From a virus, in IMG/VR virus record IMGVR_UViG_3300020463_002082, positions 1 to 21,734 of that record: a DNA stretch of 21,734 nucleotides; one strand, given 5' to 3'. Of this stretch, positions 824 to 18,248 are shown one piece after another. The notes under the pieces were generated by a model, which did no database searches, was not told the origin of the DNA, and was given only the letters and a program-made list of their open reading frames with translations. Every line of letters starts with the position of its first letter. The stretch's first letter is position 1. The translations under genes were made by a program, and so were the position numbers.

Positions 824-1889
824 AAAGTATTATGAAGTTAGCTCCAATGGAAAAATTATGCCAACGTCTATTCCAATACTTATTATATGTTCCTTCTGCA
901 AAAACTCCTAAACTTTTTGTAAGTTTCCAACCAAATATCAAACCTCCTGAATAATCTACCCATTGTCCATCATTATAGTTGTGGAAAGAAAATTCAGTTT
1001 TTGTATCATAATGATACGGCATTACATTACCAAAACCATGTACCCAAAAATCTTTAGTATAATGATAATAATCAAAACCTAATACTAAAGAATAATTCCA
1101 TTGCACTGGTGCAGCATTAACTTTCTTTTCTACATAATCTGCTAATACTTGTGGTATTACTACACCTTCCCATATTTGAGTATTTTCAGCTACCAAAGAT
1201 CCACCTGGACTATAATAAGCTTCTCCACCCATACCATCAAATTCTACAGAGTAGCCTTCTTGTAAAGCCAAATAAGTATAGTGTAAATTTCCATTTGATA
1301 ATAACCATTCTTCTAATGGATCATATCCATAAGGTTGCGAAAACCTTTCTACAGCTCCAACATTTAATGAAAACTTTCTACCAAATTTATGTCTATATCT
1401 TTGTGATGCTTCAAAGAATTCAATATCAGCAAAACCATCTGTAAGATATTCTGTTTTGACAATCCAGTCATTTGCAACATATCTTAAGAAATGATGTTGA
1501 TTAAAAAATGATTTACCTTGCTGTCTTCTCCAATCAGCTTCAAATAAAAATTCAAAACCATTTACCTTTCCAACATTAGCATCATCACTAATTGTATTCT
1601 CTGAACCGTCATAAAATACATCTGATCTATTTTCATATCCAAATCTTGCAATTTTTCTAACACCAACAGCAAGAGAATAATCAAAAGGAGTTTCTACCTT
1701 TGTTGTTTGTAAACCACTAGTAACAGAATAAACATTTGCATCTGAAAGAGAATTACCTCCATTAGCGGCTGCATAAAAAGTGGAGTATTTAAAAACCTTT
1801 TTTAACTCCTTCTTAAATTTAGAAGGTTCATTATCTTGACCGAATGTCAAAAACGGAACAAGAAGAAATAAGATTAATAACTTTTTCAT
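822..1889 (-). CDS. secreted beta-barrel outer-membrane-like protein
   Basis: The protein has 355 residues. Its N-terminus is a flavobacterial-type signal peptide (MKKLLILFLLVPFLTFGQ, cut after Q18). The mature part is rich in aromatic residues alternating with polar ones (for example 'FEFLFEADW', 'YSLVLGFDYYHY', 'YSGGLIFGW') and ends in 'NFSIGANFIIL', a C-terminal strand typical of outer-membrane barrels. I see no enzymatic motif. Its ATG overlaps the stop of the T9SS cargo gene by one base (TAATG at 1887-1891), which implies coupled translation and a shared role. It could be a phage-encoded outer-membrane protein that alters the host surface, or a partner that holds the 1021-residue cargo. 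Compared with ordinary phage genes it is unusual in looking like a host envelope protein. Confidence 0.7.
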   Translation of the reverse strand: MKKLLILFLLVPFLTFGQDNEPSKFKKELKKVFKYSTFYAAANGGNSLSDANVYSVTSGLQTTKVETPFDYSLAVGVRKIARFGYENRSDVFYDGSENTISDDANVGKVNGFEFLFEADWRRQQGKSFFNQHHFLRYVANDWIVKTEYLTDGFADIEFFEASQRYRHKFGRKFSLNVGAVERFSQPYGYDPLEEWLLSNGNLHYTYLALQEGYSVEFDGMGGEAYYSPGGSLVAENTQIWEGVVIPQVLADYVEKKVNAAPVQWNYSLVLGFDYYHYTKDFWVHGFGNVMPYHYDTKTEFSFHNYNDGQWVDYSGGLIFGWKLTKSLGVFAEGTYNKYWNRRWHNFSIGANFIIL

Positions 1890-4800
1890 TATTCTTTAAT
1901 TATTTTATTACGATATTTTTTACCGTCATGCCAAATTTCTAAAAGATAAATTCCATTAGATAATTTAGTTAAATCAACTTGAGTACCATTAGATCTTTGT
2001 ATAAGTGTTTTACCAGTAAGATCATATAATACAAATTCAACACCATCTAATCCTGATACTATGTTTAGTATATTCTTAGTAGGGTTAGGATAAATTGCTA
2101 TAGAAGATTCTAATCTTCGAGTTTCCCAAATGTCCATTCCATCAGGCCAACCATTTTCACAGTAGTTATACATCTCTTGGCAAATAGCATCCCATTCATT
2201 TTCACAACAATAACTATCTACATCAATTACCCATGCATAACATTGATCATTTAACCAATATGGATTTCCTGGTCCTGTTATACACCCTGCATCAATTACA
2301 CAACTGCCATCATCTGTATTAACATCTAATTGAGGATTTCCTGAAAGTATGTTTGCTATCCCATCTCCGTCATAATCATTATAGTTATATGCAAGTGGAT
2401 TAGTACATCCTAGTATTTCGCCATAACATGTACCGTCATCTGTATTCGCCAATGGGTTAAAATTAAATGCATCTGGATCAGTACATCCTAATATAATAGG
2501 TTCACAACTTCCGTTATCAGTATTGGCAGTAGGATCATAATTATATGCAGTAGGATCTGTACATCCATAAATATAAGGTTCACAGCTTCCGTCATCAGTA
2601 TTTGCATTTGGATCAAAATTAAATTGAGTAGGATCTGTACAACCTAATACCACAGGAATACAACTGTTATCATCTGTATTGGCATTAGGATCATAATTAA
2701 AGGCAGTTGAATCAGTACATCCGTAAACGATAGGAATACATGTTCCATCGTCATCGGTAGCCTGTGGGTTAAAGTTTATAGAAAGAGGATCTGTACAACC
2801 GGCTATTTCTAACTCATCACAAACACCATCACCATCAGTATCATTTATACATACATTATTACAATCATAGTATTGGTCTGGGAATACACAACCACCATTA
2901 TCTACATTAGCAGTAGAATCATAGTTACATGCATTAACATCCATACATCCTAAGTAGATACAACTTCCATCGTCTACATTAGCATTAGGATTGTAATTAT
3001 ATGCATTAGGATCCATACAGCCTTGAACTGTTGCTACACAAGTTCCGTCATCAACATTTGCATTAGGATCATAGTTAAAAGCAAGTGGGTTAGTACAACC
3101 TAATACCACAGGTATACAACTACCATCATCTGTATTAACATCAACTAAAGGATCTCCTGTTGGTGGTATATAATTAAATGCAGTAGAATCAGTACATCCT
3201 AAAATTACAGGAATACATGTACTACCAAAAGTAGGTAAAGAATCAGCTTCTAAAATAAAAGGAAACGGTAAAGCATCCCAGTATCCTACATCTATTATTA
3301 CATCTCCATCAGGACCTGTTAGCGAATATGCAATTTGATTAATAGAAGTAATTGATTGTGGTGTAGTAAATAAGTAAGCATAAACAGGTTGATATATGTT
3401 TAAGTTAACTTGGAAAGAAATACTACTTCCATCAGCTGCACCCATTTTATATTGAGGCGATATCCAGTTACCTTGTTTTAAACCTAACCAAGTTCCACCC
3501 CAACCATCGGCAGCACCATCAAAAATTTCTAAGGTATATTGACCTTCCATTACTTCTGAGGTATTTGCATTAGCATCATAATTAAATGCAGTTGGATCTG
3601 TACAACCTTCTACTCTAGGTGTCCCACACGCAATTCCAAGATGTACTGTAGCAAGAGGATCATATTCTAAATAGAAAGGGTTTGTACAACCAGGAACAGG
3701 TGGTGTTGGAGTACACTCAGCCGGTTCAAACTGTGGAGATGTAGCTAAGTAATTAAAATTTCCATCAGGATAATCATCTTGTAAATTGTAAAGAATGTTT
3801 CCATCACAATCTACAACTTGAACATTTCCATTAACAGTACCACCAAAACATGTACCACATAAACCATCTCCATAACTATCTTCAACAATAATATCATATA
3901 ATTGGCCTGTATCAACACAAGCAAATGTAGAAATAGGTACACCTGGTTGAGCACCTTGATAAGTTCCTTGTGGAGCTTCTGCTATTAAACCATAATCTCC
4001 AAATAATTTCCAGCTTGATTCACCACCATAATTATCAGGAGTAAAAATAATTTCTATTGAAGTTTGTCCTGGTCCACAATTGGCAGTAGTAATACAACTT
4101 CCGTTATCTATGTTAGCCCATGGATTAAAGTTTGCAGAGGTTGGATCCATACAGCCTAAAATAGCCCCACACGGTAAACATGATTCCCAACATACTGGTG
4201 GTAAACTAATAGGTAATGTATCAACAGTTAAAGTTCTATTAATAAAACCTTGACCATCTGGTTGAAAACATCCAGTATTTGGTCCTAATTGAGGCAATTC
4301 TTGAACTGCCCAATTGTCTAACATATATTTCCAAAGATAATTTCCTGATGGTAAATCTAATGTTGCTTCCCAAACATTATCACCGTCAGGATCCATCATT
4401 GGCATAGAATCTGTCCAGTTATTAAATGTACCACTAACATAAGGAGTAGAAAAAGTATCTGGATATACATTCATATCCAAAACAAAATCTACTGCATATG
4501 TACATGACCCATCGTCAATAACAGCAGTAGAATCATAATTACTTGAATTAGGATCTGTACACCCTGTAGGTGGCGGTGGGCATGGTAATAGATTAACCAC
4601 TGTATCATATTGGGAAAATGCAAAATTAGCATCTAAATCTAATATAATACCTTGGCAATCATTTTCCATTAATATATTAGATGGGGTATTAGCAGCGTCT
4701 ATCCAACCGTCACCGAATGAATCATATAAAGAAATAGCAACATCACCAGAATCGGCATATACTATTGTCTCTAAAAATTCGTAAGGTACAGATGGTTGAT

Positions 4801-4954
4801 AATTTACTAAGGTATCTCCGTCTTGTGTCATTAAAACAAAAGATTCATCCGATGCCCATTGATCAAATTGTACTTCCAGGTTAAACCATGAATTTTGACC
4901 ATACAATAAACTACTGCATAATAATAGAAACGAGAATAGAAAATTCTTAATCAT
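1889..4954 (-). CDS. T9SS cargo protein with repeated Cys/Asp motifs and type A sorting domain
   Basis: The protein has 1021 residues. It begins with a signal peptide (about 1-20, ending 'LLYGQ'). About 14 copies of a motif of the form GC(T/M)(D/N)P...NYDP.AN.DDGSC follow, a few dispersed over 131-460 and the rest dense over 587-885; such Asp/Asn-Cys units are common in secreted flavobacterial proteins and may bind calcium. Residues 172-212 ('SGTFNNW...DPDGDNVWE...GNYLWKY') resemble the AMPK/CBM48 carbohydrate-binding E-set domain. A Cys-rich motif 'CC..EWDAIC' lies at 916-925. Residues 951-1021 match the Por secretion system type A sorting domain: 'SIAIYPNPTKNILNI', 'LYDLTGKTL', 'LSNGIYLLEI' and a basic end. 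In Bacteroidetes this domain sends proteins through the T9SS to the cell surface. The gene is translationally coupled to the beta-barrel gene. It is likely a surface adhesin or surface modifier; the exact role is unknown. Confidence 0.85.
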   Translation of the reverse strand: MIKNFLFSFLLLCSSLLYGQNSWFNLEVQFDQWASDESFVLMTQDGDTLVNYQPSVPYEFLETIVYADSGDVAISLYDSFGDGWIDAANTPSNILMENDCQGIILDLDANFAFSQYDTVVNLLPCPPPPTGCTDPNSSNYDSTAVIDDGSCTYAVDFVLDMNVYPDTFSTPYVSGTFNNWTDSMPMMDPDGDNVWEATLDLPSGNYLWKYMLDNWAVQELPQLGPNTGCFQPDGQGFINRTLTVDTLPISLPPVCWESCLPCGAILGCMDPTSANFNPWANIDNGSCITTANCGPGQTSIEIIFTPDNYGGESSWKLFGDYGLIAEAPQGTYQGAQPGVPISTFACVDTGQLYDIIVEDSYGDGLCGTCFGGTVNGNVQVVDCDGNILYNLQDDYPDGNFNYLATSPQFEPAECTPTPPVPGCTNPFYLEYDPLATVHLGIACGTPRVEGCTDPTAFNYDANANTSEVMEGQYTLEIFDGAADGWGGTWLGLKQGNWISPQYKMGAADGSSISFQVNLNIYQPVYAYLFTTPQSITSINQIAYSLTGPDGDVIIDVGYWDALPFPFILEADSLPTFGSTCIPVILGCTDSTAFNYIPPTGDPLVDVNTDDGSCIPVVLGCTNPLAFNYDPNANVDDGTCVATVQGCMDPNAYNYNPNANVDDGSCIYLGCMDVNACNYDSTANVDNGGCVFPDQYYDCNNVCINDTDGDGVCDELEIAGCTDPLSINFNPQATDDDGTCIPIVYGCTDSTAFNYDPNANTDDNSCIPVVLGCTDPTQFNFDPNANTDDGSCEPYIYGCTDPTAYNYDPTANTDNGSCEPIILGCTDPDAFNFNPLANTDDGTCYGEILGCTNPLAYNYNDYDGDGIANILSGNPQLDVNTDDGSCVIDAGCITGPGNPYWLNDQCYAWVIDVDSYCCENEWDAICQEMYNYCENGWPDGMDIWETRRLESSIAIYPNPTKNILNIVSGLDGVEFVLYDLTGKTLIQRSNGTQVDLTKLSNGIYLLEIWHDGKKYRNKIIKE
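1892..2104 (-). other. T9SS type A C-terminal sorting domain (coding segment)
   Basis: These are the last 71 codons of the cargo gene. The key residues are the 'YPNP' turn, a hydrophobic strand 'VEFVLYDLTGK', 'LSNGIYLLEI' and the final 'KKYRNKIIKE'. This order is diagnostic of the Por secretion C-terminal domain found in Bacteroidetes exoproteins. Confidence 0.85.
2300..3196 (-). repeat. dense array of Cys/Asp-rich protein repeats
   Basis: This segment codes for residues 587-885 of the cargo protein. The repeat unit is about 25-30 residues, with near-invariant first GC, a central N(Y/F)(D/N)P, then DDGSC or DDGTC, joined by short hydrophobic linkers such as 'IPVVL'. One unit carries a longer insertion 'DTDGDGVCDELE', which resembles a thrombospondin type 3 calcium loop. 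Nucleotide divergence between the units is high, so the array is not a recent tandem expansion. Confidence 0.8.
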
Positions 4955-5004: not shown

Positions 5005-7797
5005 TTAAGGCGTTGTAGGTTCTATCCAAGCCTTATAGGTAATATGACCTTCACCGTTAGCATTACTTAGAGATTCACCTACCGTCTTAGCACCAAACCC
5101 TACAACTAATTTATATGTTAGAGGATTGACGTTAGTGGATAGTACCCATTCAAATCTTTGTCTACCTAAAAGTACATCCGATGATCCAGAACCAGTCATC
5201 AGTGTGAGCGTCATCTCTGCATGTTCAGCACCAGATATTGCTCCAGCCGCGTCTAGGTTAAGTCTTATTGGTACGGCCGCATTGTCTGCCGTTCTACCAG
5301 AACCATCCCAAACTGCTGGTAGTATTATTAGTTTATCAGTGCTTGAAGTAGCAGCTATTTTTTTCACGGATGCAACTACATCTATTACAAGTTTATAGTT
5401 TCCAGAAGTGTATGTTGTATCTCCAGCAAAACTTCTTAACGCATGGAGACCTGAGACAACTAACTTATAGTAATAATCATCGGAAGCTGTAACATAATTA
5501 AATGTATTATGACTGGCAGAACCGGTAACAATAGAACCACCCCATTGGAAACTAGGTATTTGTGAACTAGCGAATTGAACCACCTCAGAAGTTTCTGTAG
5601 GTAAGCCTTTAGTAAAGTAAATAACATCTTGTGTAACAAAACCAAATTTTGAATCTTGCTGTCCTGTAGCCCCAGACGTACCTTGCGCACCGTTTTGATA
5701 TAAACATATTTTTGAAGCATTCGCTATAGAACTCCCAGATACTCCGGGTTGTATAGTAAATGTACCACTTATATATGTTAAACCAAATTGTCTATAGTTT
5801 GCAGCTGGTGGTGTAGTAGCTGCAACTTTATATAAAGCAGTTGAGGTTGCACTTTGTTGGAATGTGATATTATCTCCAATAGCTAAAAGCTCAGCAAATT
5901 GACTTAGTGTACCTAAGTTTGTTCCTATTCTTACTGACGTAACAGAAGACGCAGCAGCTGCATCAAATGTTACAGTATCATTTGCTGTACCTAATGTTGT
6001 ATCCACACCATAATTTAAGAATGAACCTGTGTAACAATTACCATCTTGGCCGCTAGTACCATCAAGTCCTTTCGTTCCTTGGATACCTTGGATACCTTGC
6101 AGTCCTTGGATACCTTGAATACCTTGTTCTCCCTGTGTACCTTGAATACCTTGGATACCTTGTTCTCCCTGAGTTCCTTGAATACCTTGTTCTCCTTGTA
6201 TACCTTGAATACCTTGTACACCTTGGATACCTTGAACACCTTGTTCTCCTTGTGTACCTTGCAGTCCTTGGATACCCTGTGTTCCTTGTATACCTTGAAT
6301 ACCTTGGATACCTAATAAACCTTGTATACCTTGTTCTCCTTGTGTACCTTGGATACCTTGAATACCTTGAACTCCTTTTTCACCTGTTGTAACAAATGAA
6401 AGTAAAATATCTTCATTAATAGTAAATGGGCTTGCAGTAGAAAAACCTACATTTGCAATTGTCAAAGTCCACCAACCACCATTATCAGTAGCATCGCTTA
6501 TTTGAAATAATAAAAATTGATTAGTATCAACTTTATTACTTATTCTTATATGTCCTTTTATTGCAGATGTAGAAGAAGCAATAGTTGCTAAGAAATTTGA
6601 TATATCTGTTCCACTTACACCAAAGTCATTTATATAAGCTTGTGTTGCTGTATTTTGTACAGCTTGATTTAAAGCAGCATAACTAAACCCTGGATCTGCT
6701 GTCGCATTAGTATCATTAAATTCATAATCAAATGTAGCACCACCAAATGCCCCTGTTTTTCCTTGTGCTCCGTTTGCCCCATCAAAACCTTGAGTTCCTT
6801 GGATACCTTGAATACCTTGATTACCAGGAGTACCTACAACCCCACCGATACCTTGTATACCTTGAATTCCTTGAATACCTAATAAACCTTGAATACCTTG
6901 GGTACCTTGATTACCTATTCCTTGAATACCTTGTGTACCTTGAATACCTTGGATACCTTGTTCTCCTTGGATACCTTGAGTACCTTGGGCACCTTGTGTA
7001 CCAGATACACTAGATAGTGGAACATTTGCCCAGTAACCACCAGACTGCCATTGTAATAAATCGGTAGTACTAGGTGTTGGTCCTGTATATTGAATATCTG
7101 AAAGATCACTAGTCTTAGGTGATCCTGCATTTAAATTTTGTAATTCTATATCAGCTTCATTAACTGATATCTTTACATTCTTATTTACTGTATCATCTAA
7201 AAGTGTAATTGCATTACCTTCGGATAAGCCTTTAAATGTAAGTGTGGTAGAAACCATACCAGCAAAGATATCTTGATGCGTACCTTGTCCTATATTATTA
7301 CCTACATTTACTTCTCCTGTAGAATTTGAGTTAATTATTTTTACTGTGTTAGTAGTACCATCATATTGTAATGTACAACCGGTACCACCCATCAGTCTTA
7401 AATTATCATTAGGAACAGAAGCTGAAAGAATAAAATCATTACCTGCTTGGAATGTACCTGTTGATCCTGTATAATTAACGGTTACTCTACCGAAACTATT
7501 TGATCCTTGTATTGTTAAGTCTCCTGTACCAACACCACCGATCATATCCCATTCGGTCAATTCAAATATACCTTGTGTCGTTCTCTTTTTTGCTCTAAAC
7601 CAAGCAAGAGCTTGTGTAGGTGAACCTGTAGCTGGTATTACTTCAACAGGATGATATACGATATGTCCGATTTCATATACTCTTGTACTTACCCATGGAT
7701 TAGAAACTGCTTTGAAGTTTTCATCAACTTCAGCATTAAAAAGTTCTCTTTTTATCTCCGTTCGGTAAAGAATATATTCTTTTAGGTTAAATGCCAT
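5005..7797 (-). CDS. collagen-like phage fibre or virion surface protein
   Basis: The protein has 930 residues. The N-terminal ~265 residues contain a likely virion-attachment region ('MAFNLKEYILYRTEIKRELF', 'WFRAKKRTTQGIFELTEWDM', a pattern seen in tail and baseplate-associated phage proteins) and a beta-rich part. Two Gly-X-Y arrays follow, dominated by G-(I/T/E/L)-Q: about 87 residues (nt 6740-7002) and 115 residues (nt 6040-6384). They flank a ~118-residue globular domain starting 'ATFDYEFNDTN'. A second globular domain ('NCYTGSFLNYG...') and a ~240-residue beta-rich C-terminal head follow. Phage Gly-X-Y arrays form collagen-like triple helices, so a trimeric fibre with a receptor-binding tip is the natural reading. 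It has no signal peptide and so is not exported like the two genes downstream. A CATAAATA box lies 20 nt before the start. Confidence 0.85.
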   Translation of the reverse strand: MAFNLKEYILYRTEIKRELFNAEVDENFKAVSNPWVSTRVYEIGHIVYHPVEVIPATGSPTQALAWFRAKKRTTQGIFELTEWDMIGGVGTGDLTIQGSNSFGRVTVNYTGSTGTFQAGNDFILSASVPNDNLRLMGGTGCTLQYDGTTNTVKIINSNSTGEVNVGNNIGQGTHQDIFAGMVSTTLTFKGLSEGNAITLLDDTVNKNVKISVNEADIELQNLNAGSPKTSDLSDIQYTGPTPSTTDLLQWQSGGYWANVPLSSVSGTQGAQGTQGIQGEQGIQGIQGTQGIQGIGNQGTQGIQGLLGIQGIQGIQGIGGVVGTPGNQGIQGIQGTQGFDGANGAQGKTGAFGGATFDYEFNDTNATADPGFSYAALNQAVQNTATQAYINDFGVSGTDISNFLATIASSTSAIKGHIRISNKVDTNQFLLFQISDATDNGGWWTLTIANVGFSTASPFTINEDILLSFVTTGEKGVQGIQGIQGTQGEQGIQGLLGIQGIQGIQGTQGIQGLQGTQGEQGVQGIQGVQGIQGIQGEQGIQGTQGEQGIQGIQGTQGEQGIQGIQGLQGIQGIQGTKGLDGTSGQDGNCYTGSFLNYGVDTTLGTANDTVTFDAAAASSVTSVRIGTNLGTLSQFAELLAIGDNITFQQSATSTALYKVAATTPPAANYRQFGLTYISGTFTIQPGVSGSSIANASKICLYQNGAQGTSGATGQQDSKFGFVTQDVIYFTKGLPTETSEVVQFASSQIPSFQWGGSIVTGSASHNTFNYVTASDDYYYKLVVSGLHALRSFAGDTTYTSGNYKLVIDVVASVKKIAATSSTDKLIILPAVWDGSGRTADNAAVPIRLNLDAAGAISGAEHAEMTLTLMTGSGSSDVLLGRQRFEWVLSTNVNPLTYKLVVGFGAKTVGESLSNANGEGHITYKAWIEPTTP
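6040..6384 (-). repeat. collagen-like Gly-X-Y array, distal block
   Basis: About 38 Gly-X-Y triplets made mostly from 'GIQ', 'GTQ', 'GEQ' and 'GLQ'. At DNA level it is a degenerate 9-nt repeat (plus-strand core ataccttg), which also creates long open frames with no meaning on both strands. Length is likely to vary between relatives by slippage or recombination. Confidence 0.9.
6740..7002 (-). repeat. collagen-like Gly-X-Y array, proximal block
   Basis: About 29 triplets of the same type as the distal block, with interruptions ('GIGNQG', 'GIGGVVGTPG') that would kink the helix. It shares long near-identical stretches with the distal block, so recombination between the two could delete the domain between them. 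Confidence 0.88.
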
Positions 7798-10878: not shown

Positions 10879-10907
10879 AAAGTCCGTTTTAAATTGTTAT
10901 TAATTAA

Positions 10908-10956
10908 ATATAATACAAATAATTGGGAATTGAAAATTTTTGGGAGACTTTTTTCT
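10908..10956 (-). promoter_or_regulatory. copy A of a repeated phage promoter-like element
   Basis: Bases 10915-10956 match 16851-16892 at 40 of 42 positions. On the minus strand the order is AAAAAAGTCT, three variable bases, AAAAATTTTC, then CAATTCCCAATTATTTGT and a -10-like TTATATTTA. The -10-like part lies about 29 nt upstream of the ligase ATG. Neither flank is coding here. The layout (upstream box, short spacer, TATATT) recalls activator-dependent middle promoters, but the box does not match the T4 MotA site. Confidence 0.6.
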
Positions 10957-11009
10957 CTGGAAATGTAAAAAGTTATTAACAATTTATTTACATTAAATTA
11001 ATATACAAA

Positions 11010-11025
11010 CTCCCATTTTTAGGAG
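11010..11025 (-). terminator. probable terminator of the DnaJ operon
   Basis: On the minus strand a 5-bp stem (CTCCT/GGGAG, one G-T pair, loop AAAAAT) is followed by TTTGTATATT. It lies 85 nt after the stop of the 82-residue gene. The G-T pair forms only in minus-strand RNA, where leftward transcripts need to end before the ligase promoter. The T-run is short. Confidence 0.4.
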
Positions 11026-11047
11026 ATCTTATCCATAAATAATTTAT

Positions 11048-11122
11048 ATGGAAAAGAAAATTGACATAAGCCCTATACTCTACATATTAATAATGGTAGC
11101 AGTATTTACATTAGGGCTCTAA
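11048..11122 (+). CDS. possible 24-residue membrane peptide
   Basis: A plus-strand ATG opens 24 codons starting MEKKIDISPI and continuing as an uninterrupted hydrophobic stretch to the stop, so it has the form of a small TM peptide. Its end overlaps the end of the convergent minus gene by 12 nt. CATAAATA precedes it by 6 nt, and AGGAG lies 22 nt upstream, too far for a ribosome site. In AT-rich DNA hydrophobic frames this short arise by chance, and it would lie opposite a leftward terminator. Low confidence. Confidence 0.22.
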   Translation: MEKKIDISPILYILIMVAVFTLGL

Positions 11123-16843: not shown

Positions 16844-16892
16844 ATATAAAACAAATAATTGGGAATTGAAAATTTTTTAGAGACTTTTTTCT
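16844..16892 (-). promoter_or_regulatory. copy B of a repeated phage promoter-like element
   Basis: Bases 16851-16892 match copy A (10915-10956) at 40 of 42 positions. The -10-like TTATATTTA lies about 24 nt upstream of the PseT-like start. The far end touches the stop codon of the bS21 gene. A 5-bp inverted repeat (AGACT/AGTCT) spanning the bS21 stop could act as a weak terminator just before this promoter. Confidence 0.6.
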
Positions 16893-17088
16893 AGTCTTTG
16901 TTTTCTTGAGTTCTAAGCCATTCTCTGTAAACAGCTTTTTGTTTAACTAATCTTTTTTTATCAGAAGGTTTAGTAAAGTGTTTATCTTCTCTAATTTTTC
17001 TAATAAGTTTAGTCTGTTTACATTTCTGCTTATACCTCTTAAGCATTCTATCAATGGAATCTTTTTCTCTTTTCTTTATTATTATCAT
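16891..17088 (-). CDS. rpsU: ribosomal protein bS21
   Basis: The protein has 65 residues, highly basic, with the S21 pattern 'DSIDRMLKRYKQKCKQTKLI', then 'REDKHFTKPSDKKR' and 'KQKAVYREWL', the form of the family found in Bacteroidetes. bS21 sits next to the 3' end of 16S rRNA and the anti-Shine-Dalgarno; in flavobacterial ribosomes it helps occlude it. Phage-borne S21 genes are known from several large phages and are thought to replace the host subunit on ribosomes. It is the gene directly below tRNA-Gln and the putative large ncRNA. A CATAAATA lies 6 nt before the start, too close to be a good promoter. Confidence 0.9.
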   Translation of the reverse strand: MIIIKKREKDSIDRMLKRYKQKCKQTKLIRKIREDKHFTKPSDKKRLVKQKAVYREWLRTQENKD

Positions 17089-17105
17089 ATACTTTATTTA
17101 TGGTG

Positions 17106-17176
17106 TTGCCTCACAAAGATTCGAACTTCGATCTCCTGGACCAAAACCAGACGTGCTGCCATTACACCATGAGGCA
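17106..17176 (-). tRNA. tRNA-Gln (anticodon TTG)
   Basis: The cloverleaf is complete: acceptor TGCCTCA/TGAGGCA, a D arm with GGTGTAATGGCAGC, an anticodon arm TCTGG-TTTTGGT-CCAGG giving TTG (reads CAA), and a T arm CGAAG-TTCGAAT-CTTTG. Discriminator A; CCA is not encoded directly after it. It lies 18 nt above the bS21 start. Confidence 0.93.
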
Positions 17177-17179
17177 AAA

Positions 17180-17785
17180 ATAAAAGGCTCTCGGTTGCTT
17201 CAATAAATCTTTCGATCAATGCGGATTTTGAAGACTTAACATTCTACACCACGTGAAGGTGGCCTTTTTAGTAGAACATGAGGAAGACGATACGGAAGGA
17301 TTTGAGAATACCTTCATCAATGCGAGCTGCTTTAAAATAGACTACCACTCTATGAACTGCCGTTCTATTACTTAATTATTCCGGCCGAGGTCTAATCATC
17401 GTAATTGGTTATCATAACCGTCAAGTGTACTTTACGCCACATACTCTTTGCGTTGTTCAGTCATTAACTAGGGTTTAGCGGTTTGCATACCTAGAAGTCT
17501 TTGCAAAATCTCTGTTAGATTTTTGTTGCATTGAACCTAAGTTCTGGTAATTACTCCAGTTCTGTTTCCTCATTTGAGTTATCAGCGAACCATCGTTCTA
17601 ACTTAGTGCCTTATTCCCTTTTGCTCAGGAATTTTTCGGCCACGCATCTACACATAATTAGAAATATCATTTAGGAGCTACCTAAAGTTTTCCGTTCTGT
17701 GCCTTCCATTAATTCAAAGAACTTATTCGCGGCATTACTTTCAGTTAATAGCCGATGTAATAAATTGATTTATTATTATATTGTA
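17180..17785 (-). ncRNA. candidate large structured noncoding RNA (GOLLD/ROOL-like size and setting)
   Basis: The 631 nt between tRNA-Gln and the hexapeptide gene hold no frame of 60 codons or more and look less AT-rich than the rest. Many hairpins fit minus-strand RNA: 17730-17754 (CGGC-ATTA stem, TGAAA loop), 17671-17685 (TTAGG/CCTAA), 17613-17632 (ATTCCT/GGGAAT), 17544-17559, 17505-17523 (7-bp stem), 17407-17419, 17240-17278 (9-bp stem enclosing CCAC/GTGG) and 17207-17216 (ATC-GAAA-GAT, a GNRA loop). G-U pairs in the 17613 and 17240 helices exist only in minus-strand RNA, which sets the strand. AATAAATC (17774-17767) and GATTTATT (17209-17202) can close the whole element. I see no tmRNA, RNase P or rRNA landmarks. 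Length near 600 nt and the place beside tRNA genes in a phage match the ROOL and GOLLD classes; membership is not shown. Ends are approximate. Confidence 0.65.
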
Positions 17786-17807
17786 ATTAAGTAAATTGGT
17801 TTAAGAA

Positions 17808-18248
17808 TTATTCAAGAATTATTGAACCACTAGGTATAACTGAATGTGGATCAAGTCTTACACCGTCGCCGATAACTACGTTATCACCTATTGTTGTATA
17901 ACTTCCAATCCATGTATTAATATCGATAGTACAGTTAGCTCCTACATAAACTTGATCGCCTAGAATTGCAGAAGTTCTAATTAAAGAACCTTCCCCAACT
18001 ACTAACCCAGCACCATGAGTAACGCCTTTAAGATCATCTAGTCCATGGAAGCATACATTAAACTTTGCTCCTTTAAGTGGACCTGTTGCAAGAGCTTCCC
18101 TAACAGAACCGTTTTCTTCTGCAATGATCCATTCATTCATTGCACGTGCACCATCATAATCAGCACCATCATATTGAGTATATGAATCTTCTAACATAGA
18201 GGTTATTTTAGTAGCCCATGCGTCTTTTCCGAAAATGTTTAAAGCCAT
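17808..18248 (-). CDS. left-handed beta-helix (hexapeptide-repeat) protein
   Basis: The protein has 146 residues. After a ~75-residue alpha/beta N-terminus ('MALNIFGKDAWATKITSML'), residues 78-146 show hexapeptide spacing with V/I every sixth position: 'GLVVGEGSLI', 'AILGDQVYVGANCTI', 'TWIGSYTTIGDNVVIGDGV', 'SVIPSGSIIL'. This folds as a left-handed parallel beta helix, as in acyltransferases and gamma-carbonic anhydrases. It is shorter than a typical enzyme domain and I see no full set of catalytic histidines, so a structural or sugar-modifying role are both open. It lies between tRNA-Arg and the ncRNA. Confidence 0.75.
   Translation of the reverse strand: MALNIFGKDAWATKITSMLEDSYTQYDGADYDGARAMNEWIIAEENGSVREALATGPLKGAKFNVCFHGLDDLKGVTHGAGLVVGEGSLIRTSAILGDQVYVGANCTIDINTWIGSYTTIGDNVVIGDGVRLDPHSVIPSGSIILE

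Follow-up and report, generated by a model that had tools for sequence, protein, structure and literature searches.

The window analysed here is the whole of a 21,734-nt stretch of viral DNA (IMG/VR record IMGVR_UViG_3300020463_002082), and its only gene-free gap of more than 300 nt lies at 17177–17807 (631 nt). That this gap stands alone had already been remarked in an earlier note on the sequence, and reading the list of open reading frames (ORFs) confirms it, the runner-up measuring about 232 nt (10879–11110). The gap is bounded by a tRNA-Gln (UUG) gene (17105–17176, minus strand), called by both ARAGORN and Rfam, and by a hexapeptide-transferase gene (17808–18248, minus strand), and a gene for ribosomal protein S21 (16891–17088, minus strand; Pfam Ribosomal_S21, E = 5e-11) lies downstream of the tRNA. 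ORFs in the gap all stay below 50 aa, the coding fragments there being at most 47 aa, and homologues of the gap RNA carry 1–2 nt indels; with only short fragments and frameshifting indels, protein coding is rejected, and the frameshifted conserved protein that the earlier note had named as a possible refutation is not seen. An Rfam scan of the whole window at gathering thresholds returns three tRNAs and nothing else, and a promoter and terminator scan of the window calls neither. The window also encodes a 1021-aa protein with a Por secretion system C-terminal sorting domain (1889–4954, minus strand), a tail domain that makes a Bacteroidota host likely, as the earlier suggestion of a Bacteroidetes phage would have it, and a probable fibre of 930 aa, marked by long collagen-like GIQGIQGTQG repeats (5005–7797, minus strand; read from the ORF list).

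The minus strand of the gap encodes a real, conserved structured RNA with a core of about 430 nt (17281–17708), its 5′ end near 17708 and its 3′ end near 17281. The first homologue (L012, 88% identity over 449 nt) was found via the neighbouring S21 protein of a relative, and a 17-mer from a conserved part of the RNA then retrieved 20 IMG/VR stretches. Because two further patterns from different parts of the RNA recover the same contigs (one of them also gave stretches unlike the RNA), the homologue set should be near-complete for the IMG/VR collection. The core is 86–93% identical in about 20 IMG/VR contigs, which share its ends and differ in their flanks. In the main clade, homology reaches 17727 (span 17281–17727), with ends alike in almost every contig. 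The RNA proper is thus shorter than the roughly 600 nt (17180–17785) first proposed. On the contig carrying the 93% copy, the S21 protein is 69% identical to that of the window. L035, a more distant copy, shares 73% identity over 309 nt, and the DNA ligases of its phage and the window phage are 48% identical. A strict RNA pattern has no match in the species-genome (prokaryote) collection, and blastn of the RNA against 50,697 phage records gives only tRNA-Gln matches among the matches listed.

Two elements of the initial proposal fall outside the core and are missing from homologues: a hairpin with a GAAA loop (near 17728–17765, upstream of 17727) and a long helix at 17240–17278, which belongs to a window-specific 3′ tail running up to the tRNA (17177–17280, minus strand). 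Upstream of the RNA, an AT-rich ATATAATAATAAATC (17768–17782, minus strand), read by eye and present in homologues as well, is a possible promoter; the sigma-70 scan does not call it. Matches of 14–20 nt to the RNA occur elsewhere in related phages, several of them 14-mers at a single syntenic place, and these looked possible as target sites.

In a relaxed Rfam scan (4227 families), the RNA matches manA (RF01745) on the minus strand at 17642–17468 (29.6 bits, E = 1.2e-5). In L035 the scan places manA on the second half of the RNA (E = 1.8e-5). Scanned separately, the second half of the window RNA also matches manA (18.4 bits, E = 0.0074), as does the first half of the L035 RNA (E = 7.9e-7), whose two units score 31.7 and 29.8 bits. 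Since both halves match in the window and in L035 alike, the RNA consists of two manA-like units in tandem: unit 1 at 17468–17648 and unit 2 at 17284–17491 (both minus strand), the latter at the matching place in L035. The Rfam match covers 17468–17642 of unit 1, and in the Rfam alignment of unit 2 the final hairpin of unit 1 serves as P1. A second covariance model, R1, was built from 22 relatives in other (marine) phages and is free of the Rfam seed. Run with filters off over 17177–17807, R1 gives two good matches only, at 17292–17469 in unit 2 (27.8 bits, E = 3.5e-7) and 17478–17648 in unit 1 (18.6 bits, E = 5.6e-5), with the next best at E = 0.69, all of these E-values being rough. Good covariance-model matches fall on the minus strand only, the same sense as the tRNA, as the earlier note had read it. 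R1 also matches both units in several main-clade contigs and matches cyanophage manA weakly; the three cyanophage manA copies scanned are single-unit.

The units share their architecture with manA, namely a signature internal loop with its hairpin, a three-hairpin junction, a long hairpin and a terminal GGUA...AAUCC hairpin, along with significant model scores for both window units and a phage habitat. Infernal aligns these core helices in both units with covariation support, the inner hairpins of unit 2 being less certain in assignment. We nevertheless class the RNA as manA-like rather than as a member, because the window and L035 units score 18–32 bits against an Rfam gathering cut-off of 55.2 and the manA outer helix is not recognisable in the window: the unit 1 match begins at model position 23, past P1 and the outer helix, and the window has no recognisable 5′ P1 hairpin (in L035, an AAUC-GACG-GAUU hairpin is P1-like by eye). 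The window RNA further differs from manA in being a tandem of two units, in having no mannose, nucleotide or chaperone gene downstream, in lying ahead of tRNA-Gln rather than in the 5′ UTR of a protein gene (the neighbours of other copies vary), and in coming from a Bacteroidetes rather than a cyanobacterial phage. Calling it a new class, as had been suggested, is too strong, as each unit has the fold of a known Rfam family, albeit in a diverged form and present twice.

The folding energy of the gap is not unusual relative to dinucleotide shuffles (z = −0.20 on the minus strand and +0.34 on the plus strand), so the eight good hairpins originally pointed out are, by energy alone, no more than chance and prove nothing by themselves; the proof is comparative. 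When 11 distinct homologues are aligned by MAFFT with no use of structure, the 80 proposed pairs (a structure itself drawn from these sequences) are standard in 95.9% of cells. Two-sided changes occur in 20 of the 80 pairs versus 8.4 in shuffles, none of 500 of which reaches 20, and sliding the partners by 1–3 columns lowers the two-sided pairs to 0–3 and the paired cells to 31–52%. With helix arms aligned by hand, compensatory changes appear in 27 of 82 pair columns, a count biased towards the structure, as that from the structure-blind MAFFT alignment is not. In 22 pairs both bases differ between the window and L035, and every one of these remains a pair (binomial P = 2e-8 for random replacement). 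The stems of this non-coding RNA therefore covary in the homologues collected from IMG/VR, as the earlier note had predicted.

From the 5′ end, the minus-strand RNA opens with one arm of a closing helix, P0 (GGAAGGC, 17701–17707), which pairs with a 3′ arm (GUCUUCC, 17282–17288). An end-joining pairing does exist, as first proposed, and its seven pairs are invariant in the 10 sequences that have P0, so that it is conserved rather than proven. A T-run follows the 3′ arm in homologues, not in the window. Next comes a 5′ hairpin (UUUAGG-UAGCU-CCUAAA, 17670–17686) that is kept in the main clade and not clearly present in L035. Within unit 1, P3 (17614–17631) corresponds to a hairpin picked out from the sequence at 17613–17632, and here that reading was correct: four of its four pairs are exchanged on both sides in L035. 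The junction helix P4 (17537–17606, with 17600–17606 pairing with 17537–17543) encloses three hairpins and has two-sided changes in five of seven pairs. The unit ends in P9 (CUAGG...CCUAG, 17468–17494), the equivalent of the manA GGUA...CC hairpin, in which two of five pairs change on both sides (CUAGG/CCUAG, CCAGG/CCUGG, UUAGG/CCUAA). Unit 2 begins with the signature UGACUGAACAA-hairpin-UAAAGUAC (17429–17463), which is almost invariant and common to manA. Its junction helix P4 (17370–17426) contains inner hairpins, of which P5 (17407–17419) shows two-sided changes in two of five pairs by MAFFT and four of five by hand alignment. P8 (GAAC-GGCA-GUUC, 17354–17365) varies among homologues as GAAC/GUUC, GGAC/GUCC, GAAU/AUUC and GAAA/UUUC, while the terminal P9 (GAAGG-UAUUCUCAAAU-CCUUC, 17295–17315), the counterpart of manA GGUA...AAUCC, occurs as GAAGG/CCUUC versus AAAGG/CCUUU.

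The unit 2 signature is the source of a group pattern, UGACYGAAYAA-hairpin-UAAGGUAC, which is found in at least 120 IMG/VR stretches. With the Rfam manA model, 33 of 45 records match at E ≤ 0.01 per genome and nine exceed the cut-off, the scores grading continuously from 172 bits through the 29.6 of the window to lower values; R1 gives 98 matches in 100 sources. The signature retrieves at least about 90 relatives, and the majority of those with a score fall short of the Rfam cut-off. As these loci were picked by the signature, its score is not independent, and the full-length matches are the better evidence. This points to a manA-like group that is large in phages and mostly absent from listings. 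Most relatives are single units of 160–210 nt. A tRNA is present at 25 of 97 loci, and at all 25 the closest tRNA shares the strand of the RNA, within 150 nt at 16 of them and at 7–9 nt at seven. Among loci over the Rfam cut-off, L079, L099 and L119 are near a tRNA. The L088 form has a blast match in Prevotella Lak megaphages, flanked by same-strand tRNA-Thr and tRNA-Met, and 244 staphylococcal phage records contain the L103 form. L107, L105/L126 and L174 also have two or three manA-like units close together, in or near tRNA genes.

Some manA copies have been noted in passing to adjoin tRNAs, in work on a Bifidobacterium megaplasmid that combines a manA motif with a tRNA array and a tmRNA (PMC10832533). 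In the searchable literature, which takes in few subscription journals, we find no description of the tandem architecture or the divergent Bacteroidetes-phage branch, nor of the size of the group and its tRNA linkage. The unit itself is already known as manA.

We consider it somewhat more probable than not that this minus-strand RNA of about 430 nt, with its two manA-like units in tandem between the arms of P0, is a free-standing product of the phage and acts in trans. Such an RNA would be transcribed with or towards the downstream tRNA-Gln and trimmed like its tRNA neighbours. Once folded, it may act in trans in the phage takeover of translation, presumably by binding the ribosome or else a factor for translation or RNA processing, to which the two units would offer two equal or cooperative binding surfaces. 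Action on translation is our best, unproven inference from the neighbours, which include tRNAs, a tmRNA-like RNA and S21. For OLE RNA, sequestration of S21/RpsU has been proposed (PMC12286853), which lends interest to a possible link between the window RNA and the phage-encoded S21. That the nearest tRNA is invariably on the same strand, in some cases only 7–9 nt away and also for copies above the Rfam cut-off, argues for a free-standing, processed RNA and against a riboswitch. The varied neighbours likewise favour a free-standing, trans-acting RNA: tRNA-Gln in the window, a tmRNA-like RNA after the L035 copy, and eight unrelated clusters of downstream sequence among close pelagic copies. The abundant early lncRNA of phage K, which carries the group signature upstream of tRNA-Asp, also speaks for a free-standing RNA, and this part of the reading has support. 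Against it, neither a promoter nor a terminator is called in the window, a T-run closes the main-clade RNA some 30 nt ahead of a start codon, and several pelagic copies are found 27–29 nt before an ORF, like a 5′ UTR element.

It is this T-run and start codon after the main-clade RNA that make a tandem riboswitch or cis-regulator the main rival. Two aptamers in a 5′ UTR would then sense a metabolite and control the tRNA-Gln and S21 unit, possibly with cooperative sensing, as in the glycine riboswitches, which are tandem and sense cooperatively. To our knowledge, manA has been a candidate riboswitch since 2010 with no known ligand, and it was reportedly proposed as a cis-regulator by Weinberg 2010 and Rfam. 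Its annotation as cis-regulatory stems from copies that occupy potential 5′ UTRs (PMC2864571), and the pelagic copies just ahead of an ORF fit such a role. In the window, however, no protein gene lies directly downstream, the RNA being followed by 104 nt and then tRNA-Gln; close relatives have differing downstream genes, and many others sit inside tRNA arrays at 7–9 nt from a tRNA. We regard a riboswitch as unlikely, at perhaps one chance in a few.

GOLLD and ROOL are large structured phage RNAs that often lie near tRNA islands (PMC12286853), and the window RNA could by analogy be a self-assembling ornate RNA that forms an RNA-only cage, outside those two families. Its occurrence in phage genomes near tRNAs, its ROOL-like size and its intricate conserved structure would suit this reading, and the tandem units could serve as assembly interfaces. 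However, the signature motifs differ, the RNA has no sequence or model similarity to either family, and its relatives are mostly short single units; we judge a cage improbable. Membership proper, which the earlier note had entertained, is rejected for both GOLLD and ROOL, neither of which has an entry among the Rfam matches at E ≤ 10. Finally, a spacer without function or in decay, its hairpins due to chance, is a reading for which a folding energy no better than that of shuffles would speak; it is contradicted by the covariation, given sharp-ended conservation and compensatory changes across about 20 contigs, and can be set aside with near certainty.

Three further resemblances were considered and rejected. 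A hammerhead-like motif, CUGAUGA-CUCAAAUGAG-GAAAC, in unit 1 of some homologues is judged a coincidence, because other clades break the motif, it is accounted for by the manA pairing, and the window has no match to any hammerhead family. A weak HDV-like match in the relaxed Rfam scan (E = 2.6) is put down to chance. The stable RNAs C and D of T4 (rnaC, rnaD) lie in a phage tRNA cluster, and homology to them is rejected, the best R1 match in the T4 tRNA region having E = 0.53.

Returning to the free-standing reading, the tandem form without a controlled protein gene, together with the many same-strand relatives in tRNA arrays, suggests that manA has perhaps been misread so far. More speculatively, and with distinctly less confidence than for the window RNA itself, manA might be the best-known branch of a widespread set of trans-acting, tRNA-linked phage RNAs that aid the takeover of translation and are not riboswitches, some of them tandem and perhaps able to assemble like GOLLD or ROOL. 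Whether a manA-like RNA is a discrete RNA made with tRNAs is now a direct and testable question. Directly downstream of the manA-like RNA of L035 lies a 117-nt tmRNA-like RNA (L035:4806–4922, plus strand) that scores 54.9 bits with Rfam tmRNA, over the cut-off. It has acceptor, D-like and T arms, but where a tmRNA normally has some 300 nt of tag and pseudoknot it has about 43 nt; inspection by eye shows no tag ORF ending in a stop, and ARAGORN makes no call.

The group is linked by blast to Prevotella Lak megaphages and perhaps also to a long non-coding RNA (lncRNA) of phage K, a therapeutic Staphylococcus phage in which experiments are easy. This abundant, early-promoter lncRNA lies between gp191 and tRNA-Asp, directly upstream of tRNA-Asp, -Phe and -Trp on the same strand (PMC9241854; the two phage K lncRNAs are numbered differently in the text and the table of that paper). 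Its region contains UGACUGAAUAA...UAAGGUACA, and the L103 form falls there. We take the lncRNA to be likely, if not proven, kin of the window RNA; as it is about 1.1 kb long and the match is limited to the signature part and pattern-selected, it serves as a lead only. The group signature stands at the start of the lncRNA (L180:2032–2065, minus strand; NC_005880.2). Its CUUAAGGUAGCUCCUUAA hairpin also resembles the window 5′ hairpin UUUAGGUAGCUCCUAAA.
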